Shown here piece by piece: positions 2,044-20,305 of a stretch of DNA of 20,773 bases. A program made the position numbers and the translations under genes. The first letter of the stretch is position 1. Each line of letters begins with the position of its first letter. Source of the stretch: a virus; IMG/VR virus record IMGVR_UViG_3300042402_005803, positions 1-20,773 of that record; one strand, given 5' to 3'. Under the pieces are notes generated by a model. It did no database searches. It worked only from the letters and a program-made list of their open reading frames with translations, and was not told the origin of the DNA.

Positions 2044-4671
2044 ATGGGCAATCTACGACTTGTTAACACAGGCACAGGACCTAGCAGTGGGGACGGCGAC
2101 CAACTGCGGGTGGCATTTGACAAAATAAATTCAAATTTCCAGGACATTGTTTCTGGAAATATCGCTGTTCCTGGCAGTGGGGGTGGTGGCACAATCGGTA
2201 ACAGTTCCTTAAACTTTGCCGGACAAACTATTTCCAGTTCCGGTGATTTAACACTGCAAAGTAATACACAGGTCTGGGTATTTAGAACCAACGGGAGCTT
2301 AGTTTTCCCGGATGGATCACAGCAGATTACTGCCTTCAACAGCACACAATATTACACACAAACACAGATTAATAACCTATTGGGTAATGTAGGCAATGTA
2401 AACTCAGGTAATGGGTTTACAGGCAGCGTTGGTGCCACAGGACCCATGGGCTCACTGGGCTACACTGGTAGCTTTGGTATTACCGGGGCCATTGGTCCAA
2501 CTGGTGCTCGTGGCCCAGTTGGAGCACAAGGTGCCACAGGCGCTACTGGGCCACAGGGCACGGTAGGAGCCACTGGCGCTACTGGTGCCAGCGGTGTACA
2601 AGGTATGCCCGGTCCGCAAGGATCCAGTGGTCCTAGAGGATTTACTGGATTTGATGGCAGTCGTGGGGATCCTGGTTATACAGGCAGCGAAGGGCCTCAA
2701 GGCTTACAAGGTATGCCAGGACCCACAGGCGCTTCGGGTATACAAGGATTACAAGGTACACAAGGTCCTAGCGGCCCCCAAGGCCCAACAGGACCACAGG
2801 GACTGAGAGGATATTCTGGCAGCGAAGGTACAACTGGTCCTACTGGCCCTCAAGGGGATAAAGGATACGCTGGCAGTGGTGGTCCTGTTGGACCATCGGG
2901 CGGAACAGGCAATACCGGCGCAACAGGTGCCTCGGGCCCAGTAGGACCTTTGGGATTCACCGGCAGCGAAGGCATGATGGGCACAACTGGCTACACAGGT
3001 AGTCAAGGGGTTACTGGATTTATTGGTAGCAAAGGTGATACCGGTGCAACAGGAACAACTGGATTTGTAGGTAGCCGTGGCGCCAATGGTACCAGCGTTA
3101 CTATTAAAGGTACAGTAGCAGATGCAGCCGCACTGGCAGCATATCCTACAGCAGGATTAGTAACCGGTGACGCATTAATTAGAACAGACAATGGCACATT
3201 AAATGTCTGGAACGGCAGTTCTTGGACCGATGCTGGACAGATAGTAGGTCCAACTGGTGCATTGGGCTATACTGGTAGTCAAGGCTCGGGATTTGTAGGT
3301 AGTCGGGGCATTACTGGTGCCACAGGCCCAACTGGTGCATTAGGACTATCAGGTTTCACCGGCAGCAGAGGAACTTTAGGTTTCACTGGCAGCGGCGGTT
3401 CATCGGGTCCTAGCGGCTTACCCGGCCCCACTGGAGCCAACGGTACTATTGGACCTATGGGTCCAGTGGGCTTTGTTGGTAGTCGAGGATTAGAAGGACC
3501 CACTGGACCAACTGGGGCGCAAGGCGTTCAAGGATTACTAGGATTTACAGGCAGCGTTGGCCCACAAGGATTACAAGGCCCAACTGGTGCCACAGGCCCA
3601 CAAGGCAATCAAGGTCTTCAAGGAGATACTGGATTTACTGGTAGTCGTGGAGCCACAGGACTTACTGGTGGTATTGGTGCCACCGGAGCCACTGGTGCCA
3701 CCGGAGTTGTTGGACCAGCAGGTGCCACCGGAGCCACAGGAATAGCAGGTGCTACTGGCCCATCTGGTGCTACTGGCCCATCTGGTGCTACTGGCCCACA
3801 AGGTGCCAGCGGCATAGCTACAAATATTGTTGGTAGTGTTCCACTGGTGAGTAACTTACCGGGTCTAAACAATGTGATAGGCGATGGCTACATTGTTCAA
3901 GACGATGGTGGACTGTATGTTTGGACTTCGTATAATAATTGGTATAGAGTAGGCACTGTAGTTGGTCCTACTGGTGCCACAGGGCCAGTAGGTTTTGTAG
4001 GTAGTCAGGGCAGCGGATTTGTCGGCAGTCAAGGCTTCACTGGCAGTGCTGGATTTACAGGCAGTAAAGGTGACGAAGGTCCAATTGGCCTAACTGGCGC
4101 ACAAGGAGCAACTGGTGCTACCGGTCCACAGGGTGATTTGGGATATTCCGGAAGTCAGGGACCCGAGGGCGCAACAGGTGCCACAGGCCTAGCAGGTCCA
4201 CAGGGTATCGCCGGAGACCTAGGGTACACTGGCAGCATTGGCCCAACAGGCCCAACAGGTCCTGTTGGGGCCGCAGGTACAGCAGGACCCACTGGTGCTA
4301 CAGGACCATTTGGTCAGACTGGAGCCACCGGTGCCACAGGCCCTGGGGGTACAGCAGGCCCGGTAGGAGCCACAGGATCTACAGGTCCTAGCGGCCCGCT
4401 TGGTTACACAGGTAGCCTAGGCGCCAGTGGTACAGCAGGTATCCGAGGATTCTCGGGTAGCATTGGCTCAACTGGACCCACCGGTCTTTCGGGTGCTGCC
4501 GGCAGATATAGAACTACTGTGCCAGCAACCAGCCAAGGTGTCACTGGAGACCTACAAGGGGATGTAGCAGTTGACAAAGCCTCAGGATATTACTATGTCT
4601 GTACAGAAAATTACACTACTGGCGTTCCGGACATTTGGATAAGAATATACGGTGTTGAGGCTTCGTTCTAA
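2044..4671 (+). CDS. Collagen-like phage fibre protein
   Basis: This 875-residue protein is probably a virion fibre or spike. The N-terminal region (1-123) contains [14 protein letters not shown], a motif style I associate with attachment domains of T4-like fibres. From about residue 124 to 818 it is built of Gly-X-Y triplets, mostly [10 protein letters not shown] and GYTGS/GFTGS variants, as in bacterial and phage collagen-like proteins that form trimeric triple helices. Two related globular inserts interrupt it at about 348-401 and 589-639; both have a [10 protein letters not shown] / [10 protein letters not shown] element, a LxVW motif and end in VGPTG. A third non-collagen domain (819-875) closes the protein. 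It has its own late promoter and SD. It is followed 3 bases later by a subtilisin-like protease, which might process it. The exact virion location is unknown. Confidence 0.85.
2414..4500 (+). repeat. Gly-X-Y coding repeat region
   Basis: Degenerate 9-base (Gly-X-Y) repeats fill this part of the fibre gene, interrupted only by two inserts (about 3088-3246 and 3811-3960). An almost exact 18-base tandem repeat occurs three times at 3748-3801 (the unit encodes GATGPS; the last copy changes at its end), which suggests recent slippage or recombination. The repeats also produce long proline-rich shadow frames on the other strand. Confidence 0.85.
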
Positions 4672-4674
4672 GAT

Positions 4675-6279
4675 ATGAAAGAATACATAATTGTTGCTAA
4701 AACGGAAGCAGACATTGACAGTCTGCATGCCGAACTAACTGTTAATACTGCGGCCAATTCTGCAAGTAACAAGGCTGTTGTTCCGATTAGAGCAGTTAAT
4801 GTTGCCAATGCCAGACTGGGTAATCCTAGAATTACGCATTACTTTTTAACTGACACTGAAGCAGAAAAATTAGCCAATGACCCCAGGGTTGAGGCTATAC
4901 ATTTGCCACCGCCCACAGATTCTAGAATCAAACATGTTGTACAAAGATCTGTGGCATACAATGGCGTACTAGGAAACTACAATAGAAACAGTTCCTTGGA
5001 CAAATTTAACATCAACTGGGGCCTGCGTAGAACCAGTGTAGCCACGGTAGAACCCAGACCTGGCAACACCTATGAATACGATGTCGACGGTGCAGGGGTT
5101 GACATTATTATCATGGATGACGGTGTACAAGTAGATCATCCTGATTTATTAGAAGTCACTGGTCAAAGTAGAGTTCAACAGATAAATTGGTATGCAGTCA
5201 CAGGTATACCGGGCACTATGCCACCAAATCACTATTCAATGACAAACTACGGCGATGGTGAGCACGGCACACATGTGGCAACAACTGTAGCAGGAAAGAC
5301 CTTTGGCTATGCTAAAAAGTCTCGACTGTATTCTCTGCGAATATTTGGTTCTCAGAGTCAGGTTATTCCCGAGGCCGATCAATTTGACTTAATTAGAGTT
5401 TTCCATCAAAATAAACCCATTGACCCTAAAACCGGTGCCAAGCGTCCAACTATAGTCAATATGAGTTGGGGCTATCGATGGTACTATAACAATGCTAACT
5501 TTTCTAACGGAAACATAATTAGAAAAATCAACTATCGTGGCACAGTCTACGATTACACCAATGCGCCGGTGTCAGCAAAACAACAGTTTGGTCAAATTGG
5601 CAGCTTACATGGTTTTATTGTGCCCAGTGCAAATGCCGAACAGCAAGATGCTGAAAATGCCGGCGTGATATTTGTTCATAGTGCCGGTAACTTTTCTCAT
5701 AAAATTGACAAAGTTGGCGGAGTGGATTATAACAACTACTACACCATGAATGAAAGTTTTGCAGGAATTGTGCCAGCCAACCAACCCATTTATTATCATA
5801 GAGGCGGAAGTCCTCAGAGTTTAAATGCTATCACTGTCAGTGCCGCACGAGATATTCCATCTCGTGCCAACAATCGCAATTGGGAAATAGTAGACAACTA
5901 CAGCGAACGCGGTCCTGGTTGTGATGTGGTTGCACCTGGTACTAACATCACTGCCGGAACTTCCAAGACTGCTTCGTATGCTACACAAGAATATGTCTGG
6001 GGCAGAAACAATGTGCAGGATACCTCGCACAAGGTTACAAAAATCAGTGGTACCAGTATGGCAGCACCTCAGGTAACTGGAGTGCTGGCTCTCTATCTGA
6101 GTAGAAATCCCAAAGCCACTCCAGCTCAATGTAAGGCCTGGATATCCCGGACCGGAATTAAAAGTCAAATCTTTTCCAGCGTTATCAATAACGATTGGGC
6201 CAATGGCAATGCCCTATTAGGCGGTCCAAATAATTTTCTTTTCAATCCCTATAGAAATAGGTACACTGATAAAAAATAA
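4675..6279 (+). CDS. Subtilisin-like serine protease (S8 family)
   Basis: A 534-residue protein with the full subtilase catalytic set in order: Asp148 in IIIMDDGVQVDHPDL, His197 in GEHGTHVATTVAG, the oxyanion-hole Asn339 in VHSAGN, and Ser461 in GTSMAAPQVTGV. The first 130 residues lie before the catalytic domain and could be a propeptide-like or assembly domain (EYIIVAKTEADIDSL resembles the start of an inhibitor-type prodomain). There is no signal peptide or membrane segment, so it acts in the cell or as part of the particle. It starts 3 bases after the collagen-like fibre stop and is presumably co-transcribed from that late promoter. I infer a role in maturing the fibre or another virion protein, but a lysis or entry role is possible. 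Confidence in the enzyme class is high, in the role low. Confidence 0.92.
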   Translation: MKEYIIVAKTEADIDSLHAELTVNTAANSASNKAVVPIRAVNVANARLGNPRITHYFLTDTEAEKLANDPRVEAIHLPPPTDSRIKHVVQRSVAYNGVLGNYNRNSSLDKFNINWGLRRTSVATVEPRPGNTYEYDVDGAGVDIIIMDDGVQVDHPDLLEVTGQSRVQQINWYAVTGIPGTMPPNHYSMTNYGDGEHGTHVATTVAGKTFGYAKKSRLYSLRIFGSQSQVIPEADQFDLIRVFHQNKPIDPKTGAKRPTIVNMSWGYRWYYNNANFSNGNIIRKINYRGTVYDYTNAPVSAKQQFGQIGSLHGFIVPSANAEQQDAENAGVIFVHSAGNFSHKIDKVGGVDYNNYYTMNESFAGIVPANQPIYYHRGGSPQSLNAITVSAARDIPSRANNRNWEIVDNYSERGPGCDVVAPGTNITAGTSKTASYATQEYVWGRNNVQDTSHKVTKISGTSMAAPQVTGVLALYLSRNPKATPAQCKAWISRTGIKSQIFSSVINNDWANGNALLGGPNNFLFNPYRNRYTDKK

Positions 6280-7970: not shown

Positions 7971-8274
7971 TATAGTAACTGAACACACTGTTTATCTAGT
8001 AGTCAATGCCCAAGAATGGGACATTGAAATGATTATGCGGTGGTTGAAATTCAGCGAAAAAAAGTATACAATACACATATACCACGATGCCATGGATGAT
8101 TTGAAATGGTTACATCGTGCCGGCGCTGAATCGGAGTTAATCTTCGTTAATAGACAGCAAACACCTGCAATGGATCCTTTGTTGGATCATACAGCTAAAA
8201 TTGTTTGGTTTGGTAAAGATCAACCATATCCTAGTGCAGTTGAGTCAATGTTAAAAAATGGTAGAATCAATTAA
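7945..8274 (+). CDS. Unknown 109-residue protein
   Basis: The start ATG at 7945 lies 26 bases inside the end of the membrane-protein gene, and the stop lies 17 bases inside clpX, so it is tightly coupled on both sides. The sequence has a beta-alpha-beta look: TVYLVVNAQEWDIEMIMRWLKF, then KYTIHIYHDAMDDLKWLHRA, then SELIFVNR and AKIVWFGKD, which suggests a small alpha/beta domain of three or four strands. No catalytic motif is evident. I do not recognise the family. Its position directly before clpX raises the possibility of an adaptor or modulator, but nothing in the sequence shows this. Confidence 0.65.
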   Translation: MSQLVTPPDIVTEHTVYLVVNAQEWDIEMIMRWLKFSEKKYTIHIYHDAMDDLKWLHRAGAESELIFVNRQQTPAMDPLLDHTAKIVWFGKDQPYPSAVESMLKNGRIN

Positions 8275-9463
8275 AGGTCATCAGCCAGTTTATTGCAATT
8301 TTTGTAACAAAAATCGCACAGAAGTTAAAAAACTAATCGTTGCCAACGATGCGGGTATCTGCGACGAGTGTATTGAGTTATGTGCCAGTATCATTAGCAA
8401 AGAAAAAAACGAAGAGCTGAAAAAAGAAAAGAAGCTCAATGGGGTACTGGATCCAGTTAAGGTCAAGCGTTATTTAGATACACACATAGTTGGGCAAGAT
8501 AACGCAAAAATTACACTAAGCGTGGCTATTGTAAATCATTATAAGCGTATATATTTCAAGCCCAACTATGAAATAGAAAAAAGCAATATTTTGATCTTTG
8601 GCCCAACTGGATCTGGTAAAACTTTATTGGCAAAGAAAATTGCCAACTATCTCAAAGTACCTTTTGTAATTGCAGATGCTACGACACTAACCGAAGCTGG
8701 TTATGTAGGTGAAGATGTTGAAAGTATGATTGGCCGATTACTGGCCGAAGCAGACTATGATGTTGAGCGTTGCGAGCAAGGCATTGTGTTCATTGATGAA
8801 GTGGACAAAATTGCCAGAAAGAGCGAAAGCCCTAGTGTACGAGATGTCAGCGGAGAAGGTGTTCAACAGGCACTGCTTAAATTAGTTGAAGGTACTAAAT
8901 GTCAGGTTAAAATAGGCAGCAATAGAAAAAATGTAGCCAATGACTCAGTGGAGATTGATACCAGCAACATACTGTTTATTGCCGCTGGTGCATTTGGTGA
9001 TATTGATCGCATCATTGATCGACGCATCAACAACAATAACTCTATAGGCTTTACTGCTAACTCTAAGAACAGTCAAGTTGACAGAACTAAATTTTCAACA
9101 GAAGATTTTATCAAGTTTGGCATGATACCTGAGTTTACTGGCAGATTTCCAATTATCACGCATGTGGACGAGCTAGACTTAGATAGCCTGGTGCGTATTT
9201 TGCTTGAGCCAAAAAATAACTTGATCAAGCAGATGCAGTTTTACTTTGACATAGACAACATAGAACTAACATTCACAGATGGTGCTGTGTTGGCCATTGC
9301 CGAAGAAGCAAATAAAATGAAAAGTGGAGCCCGGGGTCTAAAAGGTATTTTAGAATCACTGTTACAGCCCTATCTGTTTAACATAGAGTCTTATAAAAAA
9401 TCTAACAAAAAGAAAATTGAAGTTACGGAACAGATTGTCAAAGAAAAATTTGACAAAAGTTGA
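8258..9463 (+). CDS. clpX: ClpX, ATP-dependent unfoldase
   Basis: A 401-residue AAA+ unfoldase that pulls tagged proteins into ClpP. The N-terminal zinc-binding domain is complete (C13, C16, C35, C38). AAA+ motifs follow: Walker A GPTGSGKT (115-122), pore-1 loop GYVG (148-151), Walker B IVFIDE (176-181), arginine finger R296 in PEFTGRFP, and sensor-2 R359 in GARGLKG. The RKH substrate loop of E. coli reads RKN here (223-225), a change at a substrate-contact position. The ClpP-docking tripeptide IGF is intact (263-265), so the protein should bind a ClpP, and one is encoded at 19715. The length is slightly short of the usual 420-425. The start ATG at 8258 overlaps the previous gene by 17 bases; no promoter is visible directly upstream. 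Confidence 0.97.
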   Translation: MVESIKGHQPVYCNFCNKNRTEVKKLIVANDAGICDECIELCASIISKEKNEELKKEKKLNGVLDPVKVKRYLDTHIVGQDNAKITLSVAIVNHYKRIYFKPNYEIEKSNILIFGPTGSGKTLLAKKIANYLKVPFVIADATTLTEAGYVGEDVESMIGRLLAEADYDVERCEQGIVFIDEVDKIARKSESPSVRDVSGEGVQQALLKLVEGTKCQVKIGSNRKNVANDSVEIDTSNILFIAAGAFGDIDRIIDRRINNNNSIGFTANSKNSQVDRTKFSTEDFIKFGMIPEFTGRFPIITHVDELDLDSLVRILLEPKNNLIKQMQFYFDIDNIELTFTDGAVLAIAEEANKMKSGARGLKGILESLLQPYLFNIESYKKSNKKKIEVTEQIVKEKFDKS

Positions 9464-9480
9464 AAATTAAGGTATAAATA
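9450..9480 (+). promoter_or_regulatory. Overlapping sigma70-like and late-type promoter of dnaK
   Basis: TTGACA (9450-9455), 17 bases, TATAAA (9473-9478) is a near-consensus sigma70 promoter. The same -10 reads TATAAATA (9473-9480), a perfect T4-type late core, so the gene may be used by two RNA polymerase forms. The predicted 5' end is near 9485, at the foot of the leader hairpin. The -35 box lies in the end of clpX. Confidence 0.7.
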
Positions 9481-9482
9481 TA

Positions 9483-9537
9483 TTTGTAAGGTGCCATCCG
9501 GGCCTTATACAAATCTTGCTTTTTTAAGGAGAATACA
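9483..9537 (+). promoter_or_regulatory. Structured dnaK leader, ROSE-like
   Basis: Hairpin I pairs TTTGT with ACAAA and AAGG with CCTT around a U-G pair (9492, 9502), a bulged G (9493) and CC/GG closing an AUCC loop. Hairpin II can pair UUGCUU (9516-9521) with the ribosome binding site AAGGAG (9526-9531) across a UUUU loop, with one central G-G mismatch. The same two elements precede hsp20 and the phasin gene. Folding and temperature response are inferred. Confidence 0.6.
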
Positions 9538-11451
9538 ATGAGCAAAATCATCGGTATCGATCTGGGTACCACAAATTCATGCGTTGCCGTTATCGAAAAC
9601 GGCGTCCCCAAAGTAATTGAAAACAGCGAAGGTGCTCGTACTACACCTAGTATTGTTGCTTATGCCAACGATGAAATACTAGTTGGTGCCAGCGCAAAGC
9701 GTCAAGCAGTTACTAATCCCAAAAACACAATCTATGCTGCCAAGCGTCTAATCGGTCGTAAGTTTACCGAAAATGCTGTGCAAAAGGATATTGATCTTAT
9801 GCCTTATAAGATTATCCAGGCCGACAACGGTGATGCTTGGATTGAAGCACATGATAAAAAGCTAGCACCTCCACAGATTTCAGCAGAGGTTCTACGCAAA
9901 ATGAAAAAGACTGCCGAAGACTATCTGGGATACGAAGTCACTGAAGCAGTTATTACAGTGCCTGCTTACTTCAATGACAGTCAACGCCAGGCCACCAAGG
10001 ATGCTGGTAAGATTGCCGGTCTAGAAGTTAAGCGTATCATTAACGAACCTACAGCCGCCGCACTGGCCTATGGCGTAGACAAAGCTGACAAAAAGGACCG
10101 TAAGGTTGCTGTATATGACCTAGGCGGTGGCACCTTTGATGTCAGTGTTATTGAAATCGCACATGTCGACGGCGACAAGCAAATTGAAGTGTTATCAACA
10201 AACGGTGACACATTCTTAGGCGGTGAAGACTTTGATCAACGAATTATGGATTACTTAATTGACGAGTTCAAGAAAGAGCAAGGCATTGATCTTAAGAAAG
10301 ACATGCTGGCTTTACAGCGTCTGAAAGAAAGTGCAGAAAAAGCCAAGATTGAACTATCCAGCAGTGCCAGCACTGATGTTAACTTGCCTTATATCACTGC
10401 CGATGCTTCTGGTCCTAAGCACATGAACATTAAGATGACTCGTGCTAAACTAGAAAGTCTAGTAGAAGATCTGATCCAGCGTAGCATTGAGCCATGCAAG
10501 ATTGCCATGAAAGATGCCGGTGTTACAGCCACTGACATCGACGAAGTTATTCTTGTTGGTGGTCAAACACGCATGCCTAAAGTGCAAGAAGCAGTTGAGA
10601 AACTATTCGGTAAGGCACCCCGTCGTGATGTTAACCCCGACGAAGCTGTAGCAGTTGGTGCCGCAGTACAAGGTGCTGTTCTAGCCGGCGATCGCAACGA
10701 TGTGTTATTGCTGGATGTTACACCACTGAGCCTGGGTATCGAAACACTAGGCGGTGTGTTTACAAAGATGATTCAAAAGAATACTACCATTCCTACCAAG
10801 CACAGTCAGGTATATAGCACTGCCGAAGATGGTCAAGCCGCTGTTACTATTAAGGTAGCACAAGGCGAGCGTGAACTGTTCCAATACAACAAACTATTGG
10901 GTGAGTTTAACCTTGATGGAATTCCTCCAAGTCGTCGAGGTCAGCCACAGATCGAAGTTACCTTTGACATTGATGCCAATGGTATCCTTAAGGTTCATGC
11001 CAAGGACAAGACCACTAACAAAGAAAACAATATCACTATTAAGGCCAACAGCGGTCTTAGCGAAGCTGAAATTGAACAAATGGTCAAGGATGCTGAACTC
11101 AATGCCGATGCTGATAAAAAAGCTCGCGAGCTAATTGACAAGCGTAATACTGCCGAAGGCTTTATGAACGAAGCTCGAGCTGACTTGGCCAAGTACGGTG
11201 AGCAGATCACTGAGGAAGAAAAGACCAAGCTCAACGAAGCACTAACTGCTCTCGAAGAATCAGTCAAAGGCGAAGATGCTGAAGCCATTCAGAATAAGAC
11301 CTATTCTTTCATGGAAGCACTGGGTCCATTGACCTCAGCCAAGTACAAAGCAGAGAATCCGGAACCACAGGCTGAAACTAAGCCCGAACAATCCGAAGCA
11401 CCTGCTGATGTAGTTGATGCCGAAGTTAAAGAAGTTAAACCCGGCAATTGA
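9538..11451 (+). CDS. dnaK: DnaK, Hsp70 chaperone
   Basis: A 637-residue Hsp70, the usual bacterial length (638 in E. coli). The ATPase domain begins [15 protein letters not shown], includes the phosphate-2 region [15 protein letters not shown] (about 198-212) and VGGQTRMP (about 341-348). The interdomain linker region [19 protein letters not shown] leads into the substrate-binding domain and helical lid. The C-terminus is acidic and ends in EVKEVKPGN, close to the EEVKD-type tail of bacterial DnaK. DnaK holds unfolded chains with help from DnaJ and GrpE; neither cofactor is in the window, so host ones are presumably used. Nothing is missing or broken. Expression is from its own promoter through a structured leader, separate from clpX. 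Phage virion or replication complex folding is the likely use (inference). Confidence 0.98.
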
Positions 11452-11476
11452 CACAGGCCGTTAACTGTGTTACACT
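11448..11476 (+). promoter_or_regulatory. Sigma70-like promoter of hsp20
   Basis: TTGACA (11448-11453), 17 bases, TACACT (11471-11476), with extended -10 TG at 11468-11469. The predicted start, near 11483, is at the base of the leader hairpin. ACACAG (11451-11456) and CTGTGT (11465-11470) form an inverted repeat in the spacer that could be an operator. The -35 overlaps the dnaK stop codon. Confidence 0.7.
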
Positions 11477-11479
11477 AGT

Positions 11480-11545
11480 GTATAGGGTGCCGATATCGGG
11501 CCCTATACCAAATGTCATTAACTTGCTTATGAAAGGAGAACTAAA
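11480..11545 (+). promoter_or_regulatory. Structured hsp20 leader, ROSE-like
   Basis: Hairpin I: GTATAGGG (11480-11487) pairs with CCCTATAC (11501-11508), then a U-G pair (11488, 11500), bulged G (11489) and CCG/CGG. Hairpin II: UUGCUU (11523-11528), loop AUGA, AAGGAG (11533-11538). UUGCU pairing with the Shine-Dalgarno through a G-G mismatch is the hallmark of ROSE thermometers, which are known mainly before small heat-shock genes. Confidence 0.65.
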
Positions 11546-11998
11546 ATGACACAACAACAACTAAGTATTGGTCGAATTGACTTTAGTCCATTTACTCGTT
11601 TTACTGTAGGGTTCGATGAAGTCTTCGACGCTCTGGCCCGCACACACGAGCAATTGAATAGCCAACCTGCTAACTATCCCCCATATAATATTCTCAAGTA
11701 CGATGCCAACAATTATGCACTGGAAATTGCTGTTGCTGGTTTCGATCTCGATGAAATTGATGTAGGTGTCGAAGGCAACAATTTGACTATTACCGGTCAA
11801 AAAATTGAAAAGAAGGACGATGCGACTTATATCTATAAGGGTATTAGTACTCGTAGTTTTAAGCGTACTATTCCACTGGGCGATCACATTGTTGTCAGGG
11901 ATGCAGTAATCAAGAACGGTATGCTTACCATTCAACTTGAGCGCGAAGTTCCTGAAGCTATGAAACCGCGTAAAATCGCTATTACAGCTCAGAAGTAA
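11546..11998 (+). CDS. Small heat-shock protein, IbpA type
   Basis: A 150-residue Hsp20 holdase of the IbpA/IbpB class. The N-terminus FSPFTRFTVGFDEVFDAL (about 13-30) and the alpha-crystallin domain (about 45-135) match the family: YPPYNILKYDANNYALEIAVAGF, then TYIYKGISTRSFKRTIPLGDHI, then NGMLTIQLEREVPEA. The C-terminal I-x-I-type anchor KIAITA, which docks oligomers, is present. Such proteins coat unfolded proteins and hand them to DnaK, which is encoded immediately upstream, so the two form a functional pair. It has its own sigma70-like promoter and leader, followed by a terminator-like hairpin 10 bases after the stop. Related Hsp20s are known in some aquatic T4-like phages. Confidence 0.96.
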   Translation: MTQQQLSIGRIDFSPFTRFTVGFDEVFDALARTHEQLNSQPANYPPYNILKYDANNYALEIAVAGFDLDEIDVGVEGNNLTITGQKIEKKDDATYIYKGISTRSFKRTIPLGDHIVVRDAVIKNGMLTIQLEREVPEAMKPRKIAITAQK

Positions 11999-12044: not shown

Positions 12045-12356
12045 ATGGAAGCAATCACTGATACCATAGTCAAACCCAAGATCGAGCCCAAGCTAGATCT
12101 CAAGGAACCCAGCATGTTTCGTGTAATTTATATTAACGACGAAACCACCACGATGGAATTTGTTGTAGAGACATTAATTTCTATTTTCGACATGAGCAGA
12201 GAAGATGCCACAAGCACCGCTGTAAAAATTCACGAAGACGGCAGTGCTGTTGTAGCGGTCATGCCCTACGAAATAGCCGAGCAAAAAGGCATTGAAGTTA
12301 CTGTGTTAGCTCGCAGTCATGGATTTCCTCTGCAGGTTAAACTGGAATCAGAATGA
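12045..12356 (+). CDS. clpS: ClpS, N-degron adaptor
   Basis: A 103-residue ClpS. The family delivers proteins with Leu, Phe, Tyr or Trp at the N-terminus to ClpAP. The flexible N-terminal tail (1-22) ends in LKEPSMFRVIYINDE, the usual entry to the core. The pocket residues that hold the N-terminal amino group and side chain are conserved: N31, D32, T35, M37, V40 and H63. The core is full length (MEFVVETLISIF, then HGFPLQVKLE). No clpA is in the window, and ClpX does not normally use ClpS, so the protein would act on host ClpA or ClpC, or compete with host ClpS. The stop overlaps the next small gene as ATGA. No clear ribosome binding site is visible before 12045. Confidence 0.93.
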   Translation: MEAITDTIVKPKIEPKLDLKEPSMFRVIYINDETTTMEFVVETLISIFDMSREDATSTAVKIHEDGSAVVAVMPYEIAEQKGIEVTVLARSHGFPLQVKLESE

Positions 12357-12650: not shown

Positions 12651-13073
12651 ATGGCTACATGGAAAATCTCTAACTACCACAAAAAGAATGCAGTCGAGCG
12701 TCAATTCTGGACCAAGGACGGCATCACAGTAACCAAGGACGAAGGCTTCCGATGGGGATATTGGACCTGCGAAAGCGATGAGCGTCCTGACATTGATCTT
12801 AAAAATCCCGATGGTATCGAAATCTTATTTGGAGACTATGATTGGGAAATGGAATCTATGGACGACGGCTGTTGGGTCGAATGGACATTTCCCAATGACA
12901 TGGATGAAGAAGAACAAGAGCGTATTCAAGAGCTCTGGGACGAAGACTTCTATGAAGGCATGGAAGGGGATGGTTGGAACAACGACGACACAGAACAGTG
13001 GATCTATGGTCCGCTATGTTTGGAAAATGTAGACACCGGAGAAAGTTGGAACGGCGACAATGATACTGAATAA
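12651..13073 (+). CDS. Highly acidic unknown protein
   Basis: A 140-residue protein with a very strong ribosome binding site (AAGGAGG, 12639-12645). It is dominated by Asp, Glu and Trp, for example DMDEEEQERIQELWDEDFYEGMEGDGW (about 83-109, a run given here only to show composition). Its N-terminal part looks like a beta-rich domain with DGITVTKDEGFRWGYW (about 23-38). The extreme acidity could mimic DNA, but that is only composition. Similar acidic, Trp-rich unnamed proteins are familiar from T4-like aquatic phages (memory, unverified). No cysteine cluster, membrane segment or catalytic motif is present. The 3' end overlaps the next gene by 14 bases. Confidence 0.7.
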   Translation: MATWKISNYHKKNAVERQFWTKDGITVTKDEGFRWGYWTCESDERPDIDLKNPDGIEILFGDYDWEMESMDDGCWVEWTFPNDMDEEEQERIQELWDEDFYEGMEGDGWNNDDTEQWIYGPLCLENVDTGESWNGDNDTE

Positions 13074-13536
13074 AATCAAAGATCTCAAAGAACAAGGACT
13101 GAAAATTGGTATTACTTTCAGTGCCTTTGACTTACTACATGCAGGCCACATTGCTATGTTGGCCGAAGCTAAAAACCACTGCGATTACCTAATTGCAGGA
13201 CTACAGACGGATCCTACAATTGACCGTCCGGACAGCAAAAATACACCAGTGCAAAGCATTGTAGAGCGACAAATCCAGTTGTCTGCTTGCCGTTATGTAG
13301 ACGAAGTTGTAGTCTACCAAACTGAAAAAGATTTAGTAGATTTGATCTTGACATTACCCATAGATGTGCGTATACTAGGTGTTGAGTACGAGGATACCAA
13401 CTTTACTGGTCGCAACGAAGGCACCGGGCGTGGTATCCATCATGTGTTTAACAAACGAGACCACAGTTTTAGCAGTAGCAATCTGCGTAAACGGGTACAC
13501 GAAGCCGAGGCCGCCAAACATGGACATAATGCTTGA
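13060..13536 (+). CDS. Cytidylyltransferase-like nucleotidyltransferase (copy 1)
   Basis: A 158-residue protein of the small HIGH-superfamily nucleotidyltransferases (glycerol-3-phosphate cytidylyltransferase/RfaE C-terminal type), which join a nucleotide to a phosphorylated alcohol or sugar. The signature FDLLHAGHIAML (about 23-34) supplies the two histidines that hold the nucleotide phosphates. The second family motif reads SFSSSNLRKRV (about 136-146), the SS-x-x-R form that replaces ISTT-x-x. The middle part (VQSIVERQIQLSACRYVDEVV) matches the family. A second copy at 16731 shares TDPTIDRP and ERxxQLxACRYVDE. The substrate cannot be told from sequence; sugar or lipid precursor activation is likely. 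The gene overlaps both neighbours. Confidence 0.85.
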   Translation: MILNKIKDLKEQGLKIGITFSAFDLLHAGHIAMLAEAKNHCDYLIAGLQTDPTIDRPDSKNTPVQSIVERQIQLSACRYVDEVVVYQTEKDLVDLILTLPIDVRILGVEYEDTNFTGRNEGTGRGIHHVFNKRDHSFSSSNLRKRVHEAEAAKHGHNA

Positions 13537-16239: not shown

Positions 16240-16274
16240 CCAAATAATTATCTTATGCTATAATATAGCATGAG
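16236..16274 (+). promoter_or_regulatory. Consensus sigma70 promoter with palindrome
   Basis: TTGACC (16236-16241), 17 bases, TATAAT (16259-16264), extended -10 TG at 16256-16257. ATGCTATA (16255-16262) and TATAGCAT (16264-16271) form an 8-base inverted repeat over the -10, resembling the one at 6298-6320. The predicted transcription start (about 16271) coincides with the ATG at 16270. Confidence 0.75.
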
Positions 16275-16731
16275 ACAAACATTTGGCACCTTCCTGCCTG
16301 GCCTACGCATAATTGAGCATACCAAGTACCCCGATAATAGGGGTAGCTTCTGCGAACTGTGGAAAAGCATTGACGATGGTATGCGCGGCACCTTTAGGCA
16401 ATTAAACATTGCAACTTCAAAAATTAATGTCTTGCGTGGCCTACACAGACAGGATCAAAGTAAATTAGTAATGCCGATTGTAGGAACCATATTTGATGTT
16501 GCAGTTGATCCTGTAAGTGGTCAATGGTTTGGTATACATCTCAATGATACTTGCGGATTGCTGATTCCACCAGAATATGCACATGGATATTTGGTAACAT
16601 CAGATTCTGCTGTGGTACAATATGTAGTCGATGCACCGTACAATCAATCTAAAGAAGAAAATTTTAAATGGAATGGTTATGGTATTTCGTGGCCCACAGT
16701 TAATCCAATCCTATCAGCAAAGGACAGCTAA
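16270..16731 (+). CDS. RmlC-like sugar epimerase (cupin)
   Basis: A 153-residue member of the dTDP-4-dehydrorhamnose 3,5-epimerase family, which inverts carbons 3 and 5 of a 4-keto-6-deoxy nucleotide sugar. Family blocks are GLRIIEHTKYPDNRGSFCELW (about 11-31, given as one recognised motif region with R24 key), VLRGLHRQ (54-61, His59 at the catalytic histidine position), IFDVAVDPVSGQWFG (about 74-88), LLIPPEYAHGYLV (97-109) and ISWP near the end. It is somewhat shorter than the 180-residue norm. No other rhamnose gene is in the window, so the substrate could be a host-made nucleotide sugar. The start is fixed by the family N-terminus, and the promoter leaves almost no leader. The stop overlaps the next start as TAATG. 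Confidence 0.85.
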   Translation: MRQTFGTFLPGLRIIEHTKYPDNRGSFCELWKSIDDGMRGTFRQLNIATSKINVLRGLHRQDQSKLVMPIVGTIFDVAVDPVSGQWFGIHLNDTCGLLIPPEYAHGYLVTSDSAVVQYVVDAPYNQSKEENFKWNGYGISWPTVNPILSAKDS

Positions 16732-17201
16732 TGAAAGTGGGATTTAATTGTAGTTCGTTTGATCTTCTACATGCCGGGCATGTAACTATGCTCAAAATGG
16801 AGAAACAGCTCTGCGATTACCTGATAGTGGCCTTACAAGTAGACCCTACTATTGATCGCCCTGGTGTTAAAAATAAGCCTGTGCAGAGTGTTTATGAACG
16901 ATATGTTCAGCTTCAGGCCTGCCGCTATGTAGATGAAATTTTAGTTTATGAAACTGAATTTGATCTACTGCAATTGTTAATGACCCAGACCATACACATT
17001 CGATTTCTCAGTGAAGAATACTTGAATAGAGATTTCACTGGCAAGCAATATTGTATTGACAACAACATTGAATTGTGTTATCATAAGCGTGGTCATGTTT
17101 ACAGTTCCAGCGAACTTCGAGCTAGAACTGCCAGACTTGAAGCACAAAAAGATAACTCTATGTGCGCTATCCCTCAACACTCTACTGAGTTAACACAATG
17201 A
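16731..17201 (+). CDS. Cytidylyltransferase-like nucleotidyltransferase (copy 2)
   Basis: A 156-residue paralogue of the protein at 13060. It keeps SFDLLHAGHVTML (about 9-21), VDPTIDRPGVKNKPVQS (about 38-54), the RYVQLQACRYVDEILVYE block and the C-terminal VYSSSELRAR (about 123-132). It lacks the N-terminal extension of copy 1 and has its own C-terminal tail. These proteins transfer CMP or AMP to phosphorylated compounds. Its position after the RmlC-like gene, in a TAATG overlap, argues for a sugar-nucleotide or glycan pathway, perhaps altering the host surface or phage DNA/virion decoration (inference). Why two related copies are kept is not clear; different substrates or hetero-oligomers are possible. 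Confidence 0.85.
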   Translation: MKVGFNCSSFDLLHAGHVTMLKMEKQLCDYLIVALQVDPTIDRPGVKNKPVQSVYERYVQLQACRYVDEILVYETEFDLLQLLMTQTIHIRFLSEEYLNRDFTGKQYCIDNNIELCYHKRGHVYSSSELRARTARLEAQKDNSMCAIPQHSTELTQ

Positions 17202-18226
17202 CTAAACGCATAGGCTTTGCCTGCAAGTGGATCGACACTCCGAGTCAAGTCGACGGTATCAAGCCCAAGGACGACTGTAAGCGATACAATACCGGCGCTA
17301 CTACTGTAGCTTGGCTAAATAGACAGACTCGGGATGTGTCCGAACAAAAACTCTGGGACCTAATGGTACAGAACATCGAGGCTTCACGACTTCTAGTAGA
17401 AAAGGTAGGTCAACTTGAAACTTCTCTTCGTATGGTTCGCCTTAGTAGCGATATTCTGCCTGTTTATACCGAATCTAGCTGGAGTTATTTTTGGCGTAGG
17501 CCTGATGTTATGGACTATTGTTCTACACATTTTAGGACTGTTGGGGACCTTGCTAGGCAGCATTCTGTTCGCCTTAGTTTTCATCCTGGCCAGTTTTGCG
17601 TACTGGCTAGCGATAATCCTGACATAGTAGATCGCAGTATAGAGGAGTTTGAATATCATGCTGACATGGCCCGTTGGTTGGGGTACGGTAGACAATTCCA
17701 GGACTTTAAAATCAATGTCCACATCGCGGGTAGAGCCGGTCCAGCCGGTATACAAGCCGCACTTGGGCGTCTCTCACCAGAGGCGCGAAACTGTATTACT
17801 ATCGAAAACGACGAAATATCCTGGGGAATCGACGCCAGCCTCGAATTGGCCAACGATCTCGCTTTGGTGCTAGATATACACCACCACTGGATCAAGACTG
17901 GAGAATACATTGAAGCAGATGATGACCGTATTAAAAGGTTTATTGATAGTTGGCGCGGTCAGCGCCCTGTTATACATTACAGTGTCAGCAGGGAAGAGCA
18001 CTTACCAGACGCCTGCCGTGTCAGCCGTCCGTGCTTGACTACATTACTTGAGTTGGGTCATAAGAAAGCCAAGCTCAGGGCACACAGTGATTTTTATTGG
18101 AACAATGCCTGTAACGAATGGGCACTGACGCACAGTGAATGGGCCGATATCATGTGCGAAAGCAAGGGTAAAAATCTTGCCAGCTTTGAACTACACCGCC
18201 AGGGTCAACAGCTAGGCCTACTCTAA
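17198..18226 (+). CDS. UV-damage endonuclease, UvdE/UvsE type
   Basis: A 342-residue TIM-barrel endonuclease that nicks DNA 5' to UV photoproducts and abasic sites. Characteristic blocks are RMVRLSSDILP (about 78-88), VRLSFHPGQFCVLAS (about 124-138), NVHIAGRAG (about 173-181), ITIENDE (about 199-205, metal-binding Glu and Asp) and LVLDIHHHW (about 222-230). Later come PVIHYSVSREEH (about 258-269) and LRAHSDF (about 291-297). These give the His/Glu/Asp metal set of the family. The start ATG overlaps the preceding stop as ATGA. The strongly T-ending codons here create a hydrophobic +1 shadow frame at 17415-17627. A phage of sunlit water would benefit from it (inference). The gene converges on the minus-strand gene across a terminator. 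Confidence 0.93.
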   Translation: MTKRIGFACKWIDTPSQVDGIKPKDDCKRYNTGATTVAWLNRQTRDVSEQKLWDLMVQNIEASRLLVEKVGQLETSLRMVRLSSDILPVYTESSWSYFWRRPDVMDYCSTHFRTVGDLARQHSVRLSFHPGQFCVLASDNPDIVDRSIEEFEYHADMARWLGYGRQFQDFKINVHIAGRAGPAGIQAALGRLSPEARNCITIENDEISWGIDASLELANDLALVLDIHHHWIKTGEYIEADDDRIKRFIDSWRGQRPVIHYSVSREEHLPDACRVSRPCLTTLLELGHKKAKLRAHSDFYWNNACNEWALTHSEWADIMCESKGKNLASFELHRQGQQLGLL

Positions 18227-18688: not shown

Positions 18689-18717
18689 TTGCACCGCAGC
18701 ATAAATAAATGTACAAT
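18689..18717 (+). promoter_or_regulatory. Sigma70-like promoter and late core before phasin gene
   Basis: TTGCAC (18689-18694), 17 bases, TACAAT (18712-18717) gives a predicted 5' end near 18724, at the base of the leader hairpin. A late-type CATAAATA at 18700-18707 lies in the spacer. So, as at dnaK, two polymerase forms could act. Confidence 0.6.
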
Positions 18718-18722
18718 AGATA

Positions 18723-18780
18723 TGTGAGGTGCCGCATAGTGCGGGCTTCATTAGTAAACTTGCTTAATAAGGAGAAAACT
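18723..18780 (+). promoter_or_regulatory. Structured phasin leader, ROSE-like
   Basis: Hairpin I: TGAGG (18725-18729) with CTTCA (18746-18750), U-G pair (18730, 18745), bulged G (18731), CCGCA/TGCGG, loop TAG. Hairpin II: UUGCUU (18760-18765), loop AAU, AAGGAG (18769-18774). Both elements are shared with dnaK and hsp20 although the flanking sequence differs. Confidence 0.6.
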
Positions 18781-19092
18781 ATGTTTACATTAGACGCTAC
18801 CATCGATGCCGTACAAGGCGCAAAAAAACAATTCGTTAACACTTTTGTTCAAAACGAAACTGTTGCCAAAGCTCTAAACGAGTTTGTGGATGCACAAAGC
18901 GATTACACCAAAAAGGCTGCTAAGACTTCAATGGATGCTGCCACCGTTTTGACACAAGAAATGGTTCGTGGCGTAACCGAAGCTGCCAAATTTGATTACA
19001 CTAAGTTCGGCGAAGGCATTATGAAAGCCTACAACGAAATGAATCGTAGTGCTGAAAAAGTCTCTAAGGCTTACAGCAAAAAGTCTGCCTAA
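18781..19092 (+). CDS. Phasin-like protein
   Basis: The frame is open upstream to 18709, but the ribosome binding site AAGGAG (18769-18774) fixes the start at 18781, giving 103 residues that begin MFTLDATIDAVQGAKKQFVNTF. It is entirely helical and amphipathic, with Ala/Lys/Glu heptad-like spacing and no Cys or Trp, and has the look of a phasin (PhaP): low-complexity helical proteins that coat polyhydroxyalkanoate granules. Apolipoprotein-like or other granule or nucleoid proteins are alternatives. It has its own promoter and a structured leader shared with dnaK and hsp20, plus a strong terminator, so it is a monocistronic, probably highly expressed gene. Binding of storage granules to release carbon, or chaperone-like activity, is inferred. 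Confidence 0.7.
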   Translation: MFTLDATIDAVQGAKKQFVNTFVQNETVAKALNEFVDAQSDYTKKAAKTSMDAATVLTQEMVRGVTEAAKFDYTKFGEGIMKAYNEMNRSAEKVSKAYSKKSA

Positions 19093-19714: not shown

Positions 19715-20305
19715 ATGCCCAATTTAGTTCCAATGGTACTTGAACGCACTAGTCAAGGTGAACGCAGTTACGACTTATACAGTCGACTACTCAAAGACCG
19801 TATTGTTATGCTAGACACTGATGTAAATGATCACAGTGCTAGTTTAGTTGTTGCCCAAATGTTATTTCTAGAAAGTGAGAATCCCGATGCAGACATCCTC
19901 TTCTACATCAACAGCCCCGGCGGCTCAGTTACTGCTGGAATGGCAATATATGATACTATGCAGTTCATTAAACCTGATGTTTCTACCATTGTACTTGGCC
20001 AAGCCTGCTCTATGGGAAGCCTACTTGCCAGCTCAGGTGCCGCAGGAAAACGACTGATGTTGCCCAATGCACGCCACATGATTCATCAGCCATCTGGTGG
20101 TGCTCGTGGTATGCAAAGTGACATTGAAATCAGCTACAAAGAAATCACCTACTTAAAGCGTAGGCTCACAGAGATTTATGTTAAGCACAACAGCGCAGGC
20201 AAGACCTATGAAGAATTTGAGCGTGACATGGACCGTGATTTCTTTATGAGTGCAGAGGAAGCACATAATTATGGCCTAGTGGATCGAGTTGTGGACCAGC
20301 GTTAG
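19715..20305 (+). CDS. clpP: ClpP, ATP-dependent protease subunit
   Basis: A 196-residue ClpP serine protease, the right length for a protein with little propeptide. The N-terminal region begins [27 protein letters not shown] like the bacterial protein. The catalytic triad is intact: Ser99 in GQACSMGS, His124 in HMIHQPSGG, and Asp175 in [12 protein letters not shown]. The oxyanion loop [10 protein letters not shown] is present. The family forms a 14-subunit chamber fed by ClpX or ClpA. Phage ClpX (8258) retains the IGF docking loop, so a complete phage ClpXP is likely, although subunits could also mix with host ClpP. Own promoter; ribosome binding site AAGGAG. Confidence 0.97.

Follow-up and report, generated by a model that had tools for sequence, protein, structure and literature searches.

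Three genes in a stretch of viral DNA, dnaK, hsp20, and a gene for a phasin-like protein, are each preceded by a leader of the same conserved, covarying structure. The same leader is observed immediately before chaperone and phasin-like genes, and almost nowhere else, in a wide range of phages. These leaders are very probably ROSE-like RNA thermometers, acting in cis as translational switches that control a heat-shock regulon of the phage, though their response to temperature is inferred. The stretch, called the window below, is 20,773 nt long and covers positions 1 to 20,773 of IMG/VR record IMGVR_UViG_3300042402_005803.

Leaders and promoters in the window

A sequence-only reading of the window had pointed out UUGCUU followed by a short loop and AAGGAG in front of the three genes, and all three copies are confirmed at 9516-9531 (dnaK), 11523-11538 (hsp20), and 18760-18774 (phasin-like). 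The loop is 3-4 nt long, and each motif ends 6-7 nt upstream of an ATG. The exact pattern TTGCTT-N2-6-AAGGAG occurs three times on the forward strand and not at all on the reverse strand, and a reversed-pattern control gives no match. When two mismatches are allowed, the three occurrences found in the window are not above chance (2.05 expected), so that the significance rests on the exactness of the motif, its position, and its relatives. A chance origin is rejected because the exact motif appears only three times, always at gene starts, and has relatives elsewhere.

All three motifs belong to longer leaders that are homologous to one another and contain a GGUGCC...GGGC hairpin; the motif makes up the 3′ portion, a point absent from the sequence-only reading. 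The leader is about 60-72 nt long (~65 nt) and consists of a 5′ hairpin (hairpin I), a short linker, CUUGCUU, a loop of 3-4 nt, AAGGAG, and the ATG. The features are as follows; scores are those of R1, a covariance model built from 46 phage leaders, whose seed includes all three window leaders.

9450..9478, + strand: putative sigma70 promoter of dnaK, TTGACA-17-TATAAA, a sequence reading without experimental mapping
9485..9544, + strand: ROSE-like leader of dnaK, R1 55.0 bits, E=8e-15, hairpin I at 9485-9511
9538..11451, + strand: dnaK (Hsp70), full-length, 637 aa, Pfam PF00012 E=2e-258, NCBIfam DnaK 990 bits (above cutoff)
11448..11476, + strand: putative sigma70 promoter of hsp20, TTGACA-17-TACACT, 10/12 consensus matches, overlapping the dnaK stop codon
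11480..11552, + strand: ROSE-like leader of hsp20, R1 60.2 bits, hairpin I at 11480-11508, SD hairpin at 11522-11538
11546..11998, + strand: hsp20, IbpA-like small heat-shock protein, 150 aa, Pfam PF00011 E=2e-18
18689..18717, + strand: putative sigma70 promoter of the phasin-like gene, TTGCAC-17-TACAAT, likewise only read from the sequence
18723..18787, + strand: ROSE-like leader of the phasin-like gene, R1 54.8 bits, hairpin I at 18724-18751, SD hairpin at 18759-18774
18781..19092, + strand: phasin-like all-helical protein, 103 aa, ATG at 18781, Pfam Phasin_2 E=0.0045

The SD hairpin of the dnaK leader (9515-9531) reads CUUGCUU UUUU AAGGAG. In the hsp20 leader, whose folding z-score is −4.1, UGUCAU (11513-11518) can additionally pair with AUGACA (11546-11551) to give an optional anti-AUG helix. 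The putative promoters end 3-7 nt upstream of hairpin I in all three cases, and the predicted transcription start of dnaK (~9485) is the first base of hairpin I. The leader is thus probably the very 5′ end of each mRNA, with the start sites inferred. Evidence for a −10 position shared upstream of the leaders is limited to a suggestive peak at −13 to −5.

Genes in the window

The window Hsp20 scores 124.5 bits against NCBIfam IbpA, below the cutoff of 212, and has the equivalents of Tyr34 and Arg93 of E. coli IbpA. The third gene had been labeled phasin. This label is weak, since the protein reaches only 17.6 bits against the gathering score of 24.9 for the Pfam family (PF09361), and we name it phasin-like only. 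Structure prediction was uninformative on its identity: the AlphaFold model is all helix with a pTM of 0.42, and a Foldseek search gave no informative match in the PDB. No phasin relative was found in 50,697 phage records.

Genes for ClpX (8258-9463), ClpS (12045-12356), and ClpP (19715-20305) make a near-complete Clp protease set near dnaK and hsp20, and none of them has an R1 match. An 875-aa collagen-repeat protein (2044-4671, PF01391) is followed directly by a subtilase (4675-6279, PF00082). Two similar cytidylyltransferase-like proteins are encoded at 13060-13536 and 16731-17201; the second gene adjoins that for a dTDP-sugar epimerase (16270-16731), possibly as a glycan or surface-sugar module. 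A UvdE-type UV endonuclease (PF03851) is encoded at 17198-18226.

The leader at homologous genes

The DNA pattern GGTGCC…GGGC…TTGCTT-N4-AAGGAG matched 87 viral stretches. Since most of the R1 seed leaders had been chosen by pattern, the model was tested on loci whose retrieval relied only on protein similarity, few of which are in the seed and nearly all outside it. The R1 element is found at the start of 78 of the 80 phasin-like genes, 17 of the 18 groES genes, 68 of the 80 dnaK genes (a few weaker dnaK matches are omitted from the 150-row alignment), and 67 of the 80 hsp20 genes. The hsp20 count comprises 56 loci scored by script and 11 re-read by hand (L015-L024, L027), where the element overlaps the tblastn start by 15 nt and lies at the true ATG. 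At nine further hsp20 loci (L010, L011, L037-L039, L041-L044) the element sits before a phasin-like gene that immediately precedes hsp20, and at 4 of the 80 there is no nearby element serving hsp20. The element is also absent at the tested Lak-A1 and LR745206 dnaK loci. Apart from the gene starts counted above, the 1.2 Mb of phasin loci contain almost no R1 matches. The element also precedes genes for additional small proteins similar to phasins (L435, L440, L441). In L037-L044, L048-L051, L010, and L011, an element-bearing phasin-like gene lies directly 5′ of hsp20, tying the two families together in one apparent operon.

The specificity holds in whole phage genomes. Twenty phage contigs of 157-353 kb (5.6 Mb) contain 40 R1 matches at E<=0.001; those read out lie before hsp20, phasin-like, dnaK, or groES genes, with one off-target match (G004:222572). 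A match was found in 49 of a further 50 records, and 50 of all 70 records carry two or more. The contigs that bear the element are phages: a T4-type Gp23 capsid protein is encoded in 20 of 26, including five records with dnaK loci. The gene order in two contigs (G012, G032) is element, short ORF, GroES, apparently GroEL, a second element, and hsp20. A similar order, namely element, very short ORF (MSKHTYLT or MIKNLSPPDHSIST), groES, apparently groEL, and hsp20, is seen in L271 and L437/L438, where the ORF may be a leader peptide.

Among cultured phages, R1 matches at the hsp20 start are found in Methylophilales phage Melnitz (58.8 bits), cyanophage Syn19 (45.6), S-CREM1 (40.4), S-SRM01 (31.7), Mosig (30.9), Agrobacterium phage Atu_ph07 (30.8), Pseudomonas phage 30-3 (29.0), S-RIM2 (28.5), MED4-213 (28.3), S-SSM7 (24.5), P-HM1 (22.2), HTVC115P (19.8), and S-CAM3 (19.6). 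Among ten additional cultured phages that were sampled, most of them cyanophages, eight have the element at hsp20. The weak match of ACG-2014f (17.3 bits) is not counted among the eight, and no R1 element is found in the hsp20 leader of S-TIM5, another of the ten. The hsp20 leaders without a recognizable element in the related cyanophages S-TIM54 (L300) and S-TIM5 (L484) may reflect natural loss or a different control.

Pairing register of the SD helix

The family-wide leader consists of a 5′ hairpin (a stem with a U·G pair, a bulged G, and CC…GG) followed by CU(U/C)GCU paired to the SD sequence with a bulged G. Cells changed on both sides of a pair number 112 in the phasin set (32.3 after shuffling) and 155 in the hsp20 set (54.4 after shuffling), and sliding the pairing register abolishes the signal. 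These counts come from covariance-model alignments, which lean to the model. RNAalifold on a plain MAFFT alignment recovers both hairpins; on the MAFFT alignment of the phasin leaders, it recovers hairpin I only. Covariation is strong in stem I. The pairing of UUGCUU with AAGGAG, which the sequence-only reading expected relatives to preserve, is kept with covariation across hundreds of loci at hsp20, dnaK, groES, and phasin-like genes.

The register proposed in that reading, in which UUGCUU faces AAGGAG with a G·G mismatch, is disfavored: only 85.3% of the cells fit, no covariation is seen, and the second pair is broken in 32 of 63 sequences. Covariation instead favors a register with a bulged G that uses the conserved C before UUGCUU, in the order C-G, U-A, U·G or C-G, bulged G, C-G, U-A, U-A. 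In this register 96.1% of the cells are paired, and there are six C-G to U-A changes, including AAGGAG to AAGGAA. The helix type was resolved for 122 of 123 distinct leaders as CUU/GGAG (99), CUC/GGAG (17), UUU/GGAG (3), UUC/GGAA (2), and AUU/GGAG (1).

An outer anti-AUG helix as a universal feature is rejected, as only a subset of the family has it. Compared with permuted sequences, the hsp20 leaders give z=−2.0 (11 of 300 permutations are as low), and in the phasin and dnaK leaders the helix is not above the permuted level.

Comparison with known thermometers

Members of the ROSE-like class lie in the 5′ UTRs of heat-shock genes and have two to four hairpins, the last of which pairs U(U/C)GCU with the SD sequence through noncanonical or weak pairing with a bulged G, and temperature induces its opening and translation (PMC11182007). 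The phage leaders share the location, the U(U/C)GCU-SD pairing, the bulged G, and two hairpins. Although only phage leaders went into R1, the model picks out the leaders of two E. coli genes, ibpA (14.9 bits, E=0.0026, 15.7 kb searched; 100.4 bits with Rfam ROSE_2) and ibpB (14.1 bits). With the conservation of the leader, this supports the ROSE-type interpretation already advanced from the sequence.

Like the phage leaders, ROSE_2 (RF01832, E. coli ibpA) lies in the 5′ UTR of an IbpA-type gene and shows CUCGCU...AGGAG, in which the strand facing the SD contains one additional G. Unlike ROSE_2, the phage leaders have one covarying 5′ hairpin, GGUGCC...GGGC, and occur in front of dnaK, groES, and phasin-like genes as well. 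ROSE_3 (RF02523) resembles them over its full length: both have two hairpins, the first with a U·G pair and a bulged G, and in both a G is bulged out of the SD helix. The phage SD helix is shorter, however, and the phage leaders score only 26-34 bits against a gathering score of 43. In the Rfam ROSE scan of the whole window, a check suggested by the sequence-only reading, two of the three leaders are matched by ROSE_3 along the full model (hsp20, 30.8 bits, E=0.0068; phasin-like, 26.1 bits, E=0.11), both under the gathering score. Relatives score likewise below it (Melnitz 34.1 bits, others 31.8 and 30.7 bits), and the leaders are therefore not assigned to Rfam ROSE_3. The Bradyrhizobium hspA ROSE element of the UYGCU class has the same imperfect U(U/C)GCU-SD pairing in its last hairpin (PMC11182007, PMC11342760), whereas the phage leaders have two hairpins and sit in phage genomes.

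Known phage thermometers are lambda cIII, the fourU element of SPbeta blyA, and a fourU element of Caudoviricetes sigma70 genes (PMC11182007, PMC10586365). They are temperature-responsive phage leaders too, but are of the fourU or alternative-structure type and act on single genes; none is ROSE-like, on chaperones, or multi-gene. In the open-access papers searched (subscription papers and preprints were outside the scope), phage thermometers are described only of other types and on single genes, and those on phage hsp20 make no mention of leaders or thermometers. We regard the leaders as a new, phage-borne, ROSE-like variant extended to dnaK, groES, and phasin-like genes.

Bacterial heat-shock leaders are also matched by R1, which groups the phage element with bacterial heat-shock thermometers. 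Matches were found in 24 of 289 alphaproteobacterial genomes, and the genes behind 20 fetched matches are hsp20, dnaK (L470, L474, L476), and RpoH-like sigma factors. Bacterial proteins were named by inspection of their sequences, except for part of the hsp20 calls, which were HMM-checked. R1-like leaders precede RpoH-like (sigma32) genes in L468, L475, L478, L479, and L480, and in small-genome alphaproteobacteria both rpoH and dnaK may be under ROSE-like control. In 369 gammaproteobacterial genomes R1 gave two matches, one of them at hsp20, and ROSE_3 gave one sub-threshold match in 274. Chromosomal hsp20 genes of SAR86 carry the element; the exact-pattern scan of bacteria yielded 19 stretches in 257 Gb, of which only SAR86/gammaproteobacterial hsp20 genes are convincing. 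An origin of the element in proteobacterial hsp20 leaders is a plausible inference.

Proposed mechanism and alternatives

As a thermometer, the leader would work as follows. A transcript from a sigma70-type promoter is predicted to begin at hairpin I, a stable 5′ hairpin with a conserved U·G pair and a bulged G. In the second hairpin, CU(U/C)GCUU would pair imperfectly with AAGGAG, one G being bulged, and at low temperature would mask the ribosome-binding site; some leaders of hsp20 and phasin-like genes may have the AUG covered as well, by a second helix. Warming or another proteotoxic signal would open the weak helix and allow translation of Hsp20, DnaK, GroES(-GroEL), and the phasin-like protein. 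Since the same element lies on separate transcripts, the genes form a regulon. The inferred benefit to the phage would be that its virion proteins and enzymes are kept from aggregating.

Regulation in trans by the IbpA-like Hsp20 is a serious alternative or addition. The leader might mainly be a binding site through which phage Hsp20 represses the hsp20, dnaK, groES, and phasin mRNAs; aggregates would titrate Hsp20 and release them, giving an aggregation-sensing regulon, perhaps together with thermal melting. In E. coli, such release of IbpA repression through titration by aggregates has reportedly been found. E. coli IbpA binds its own 5′ UTR and represses its own translation, for which Arg93 and an aromatic residue at position 34 are needed (PMC10474464). 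Among 158 distinct Hsp20 proteins encoded behind the element, 156 have Arg at 93 and 157 have Tyr or Phe at 34, while IbpB has Gln93; an element common to several different mRNAs would also suit a trans-acting reader. However, Hsp20 proteins whose genes lack the element keep both residues too; Arg93, found in those of S-TIM5 and L012-L014, is thus not diagnostic. The second cationic position required in E. coli (Lys98) is usually Thr or Ser here (position 97 is mostly Arg, Lys, or Gln, and 98 mostly Thr or Ser). There are no binding data, and as the main function of the leader we lean against this reading while keeping it as possible.

Folding in silico, the check proposed with the ROSE interpretation, bore out melting for one leader only. 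ViennaRNA predicts SD opening in the dnaK leader of 0.16 at 25 °C, 0.31 at 37 °C, and 0.67 at 50 °C. For the hsp20 and phasin leaders the program prefers an AUG-covering helix (UGUCAU/AUGACA and GUAAAC/GUUUAC, respectively) with the SD helix mostly unformed, though the SD helix is able to nest inside it. SD accessibility hardly differs between element leaders and ordinary leaders of the same phages (0.46 versus 0.52 at 10 °C, p=0.05; weaker at other temperatures). Since ViennaRNA likewise misses melting in the ROSE element of E. coli ibpA, folding is a weak test that neither proves nor refutes the switch, and accessibility was discarded as a discriminator on both grounds. The lack of a difference from controls would suit a leader in which hairpin I merely stabilizes the mRNA 5′ end and UUGCUU-SD is ordinary conservation without a switch. 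This is very unlikely given the compensatory change in the SD helix, the exclusion of the alternative register, and the restriction of the element to heat-shock genes across phages and bacteria.

A role of the leader as the operator of a different translational repressor, for example T4-type RegA, is scarcely tenable. In its favor, regA lies directly upstream of hsp20 in ACG-2014f, P-HM1, and S-SSM7. Against it, the element in whole phage genomes occurs only at chaperone and phasin-like genes, bacterial hsp20, dnaK, and rpoH also carry it and E. coli ibpA scores, and RegA operators are not known to have this two-hairpin fold.

Implications for phage biology

With the leaders read as ROSE-like thermometers, large aquatic phages appear to run their own heat-shock response. 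Previously known phage RNA thermometers are few and act on a single gene each; here, giant phages have a ROSE-like switch on a chaperone set of several genes, and most of the sampled cultured T4-like cyanophages have it at hsp20. The element also ties an uncharacterized phasin-like family to proteostasis.

We suggest, only tentatively and as a doubtful extension, that large T4-like phages have an autonomous heat-shock and aggregation response in which warmth opens, and the phage's IbpA-like Hsp20 closes in trans, one RNA fold carried by the separate mRNAs of Hsp20, DnaK, GroES-GroEL, and the phasin-like protein. If this is true, virion proteins aggregating during infection, and not heat alone, would switch on the whole set, and hsp20, a core gene of unsettled role in cultured cyanophages, would be under the same control there. 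For phage Hsp20, capsid scaffolding or host survival has been suggested (PMC7674155). If the leader is gated by heat or aggregation, the function of the protein can be tested directly, and phage proteostasis would be expected to depend on temperature in warming waters.
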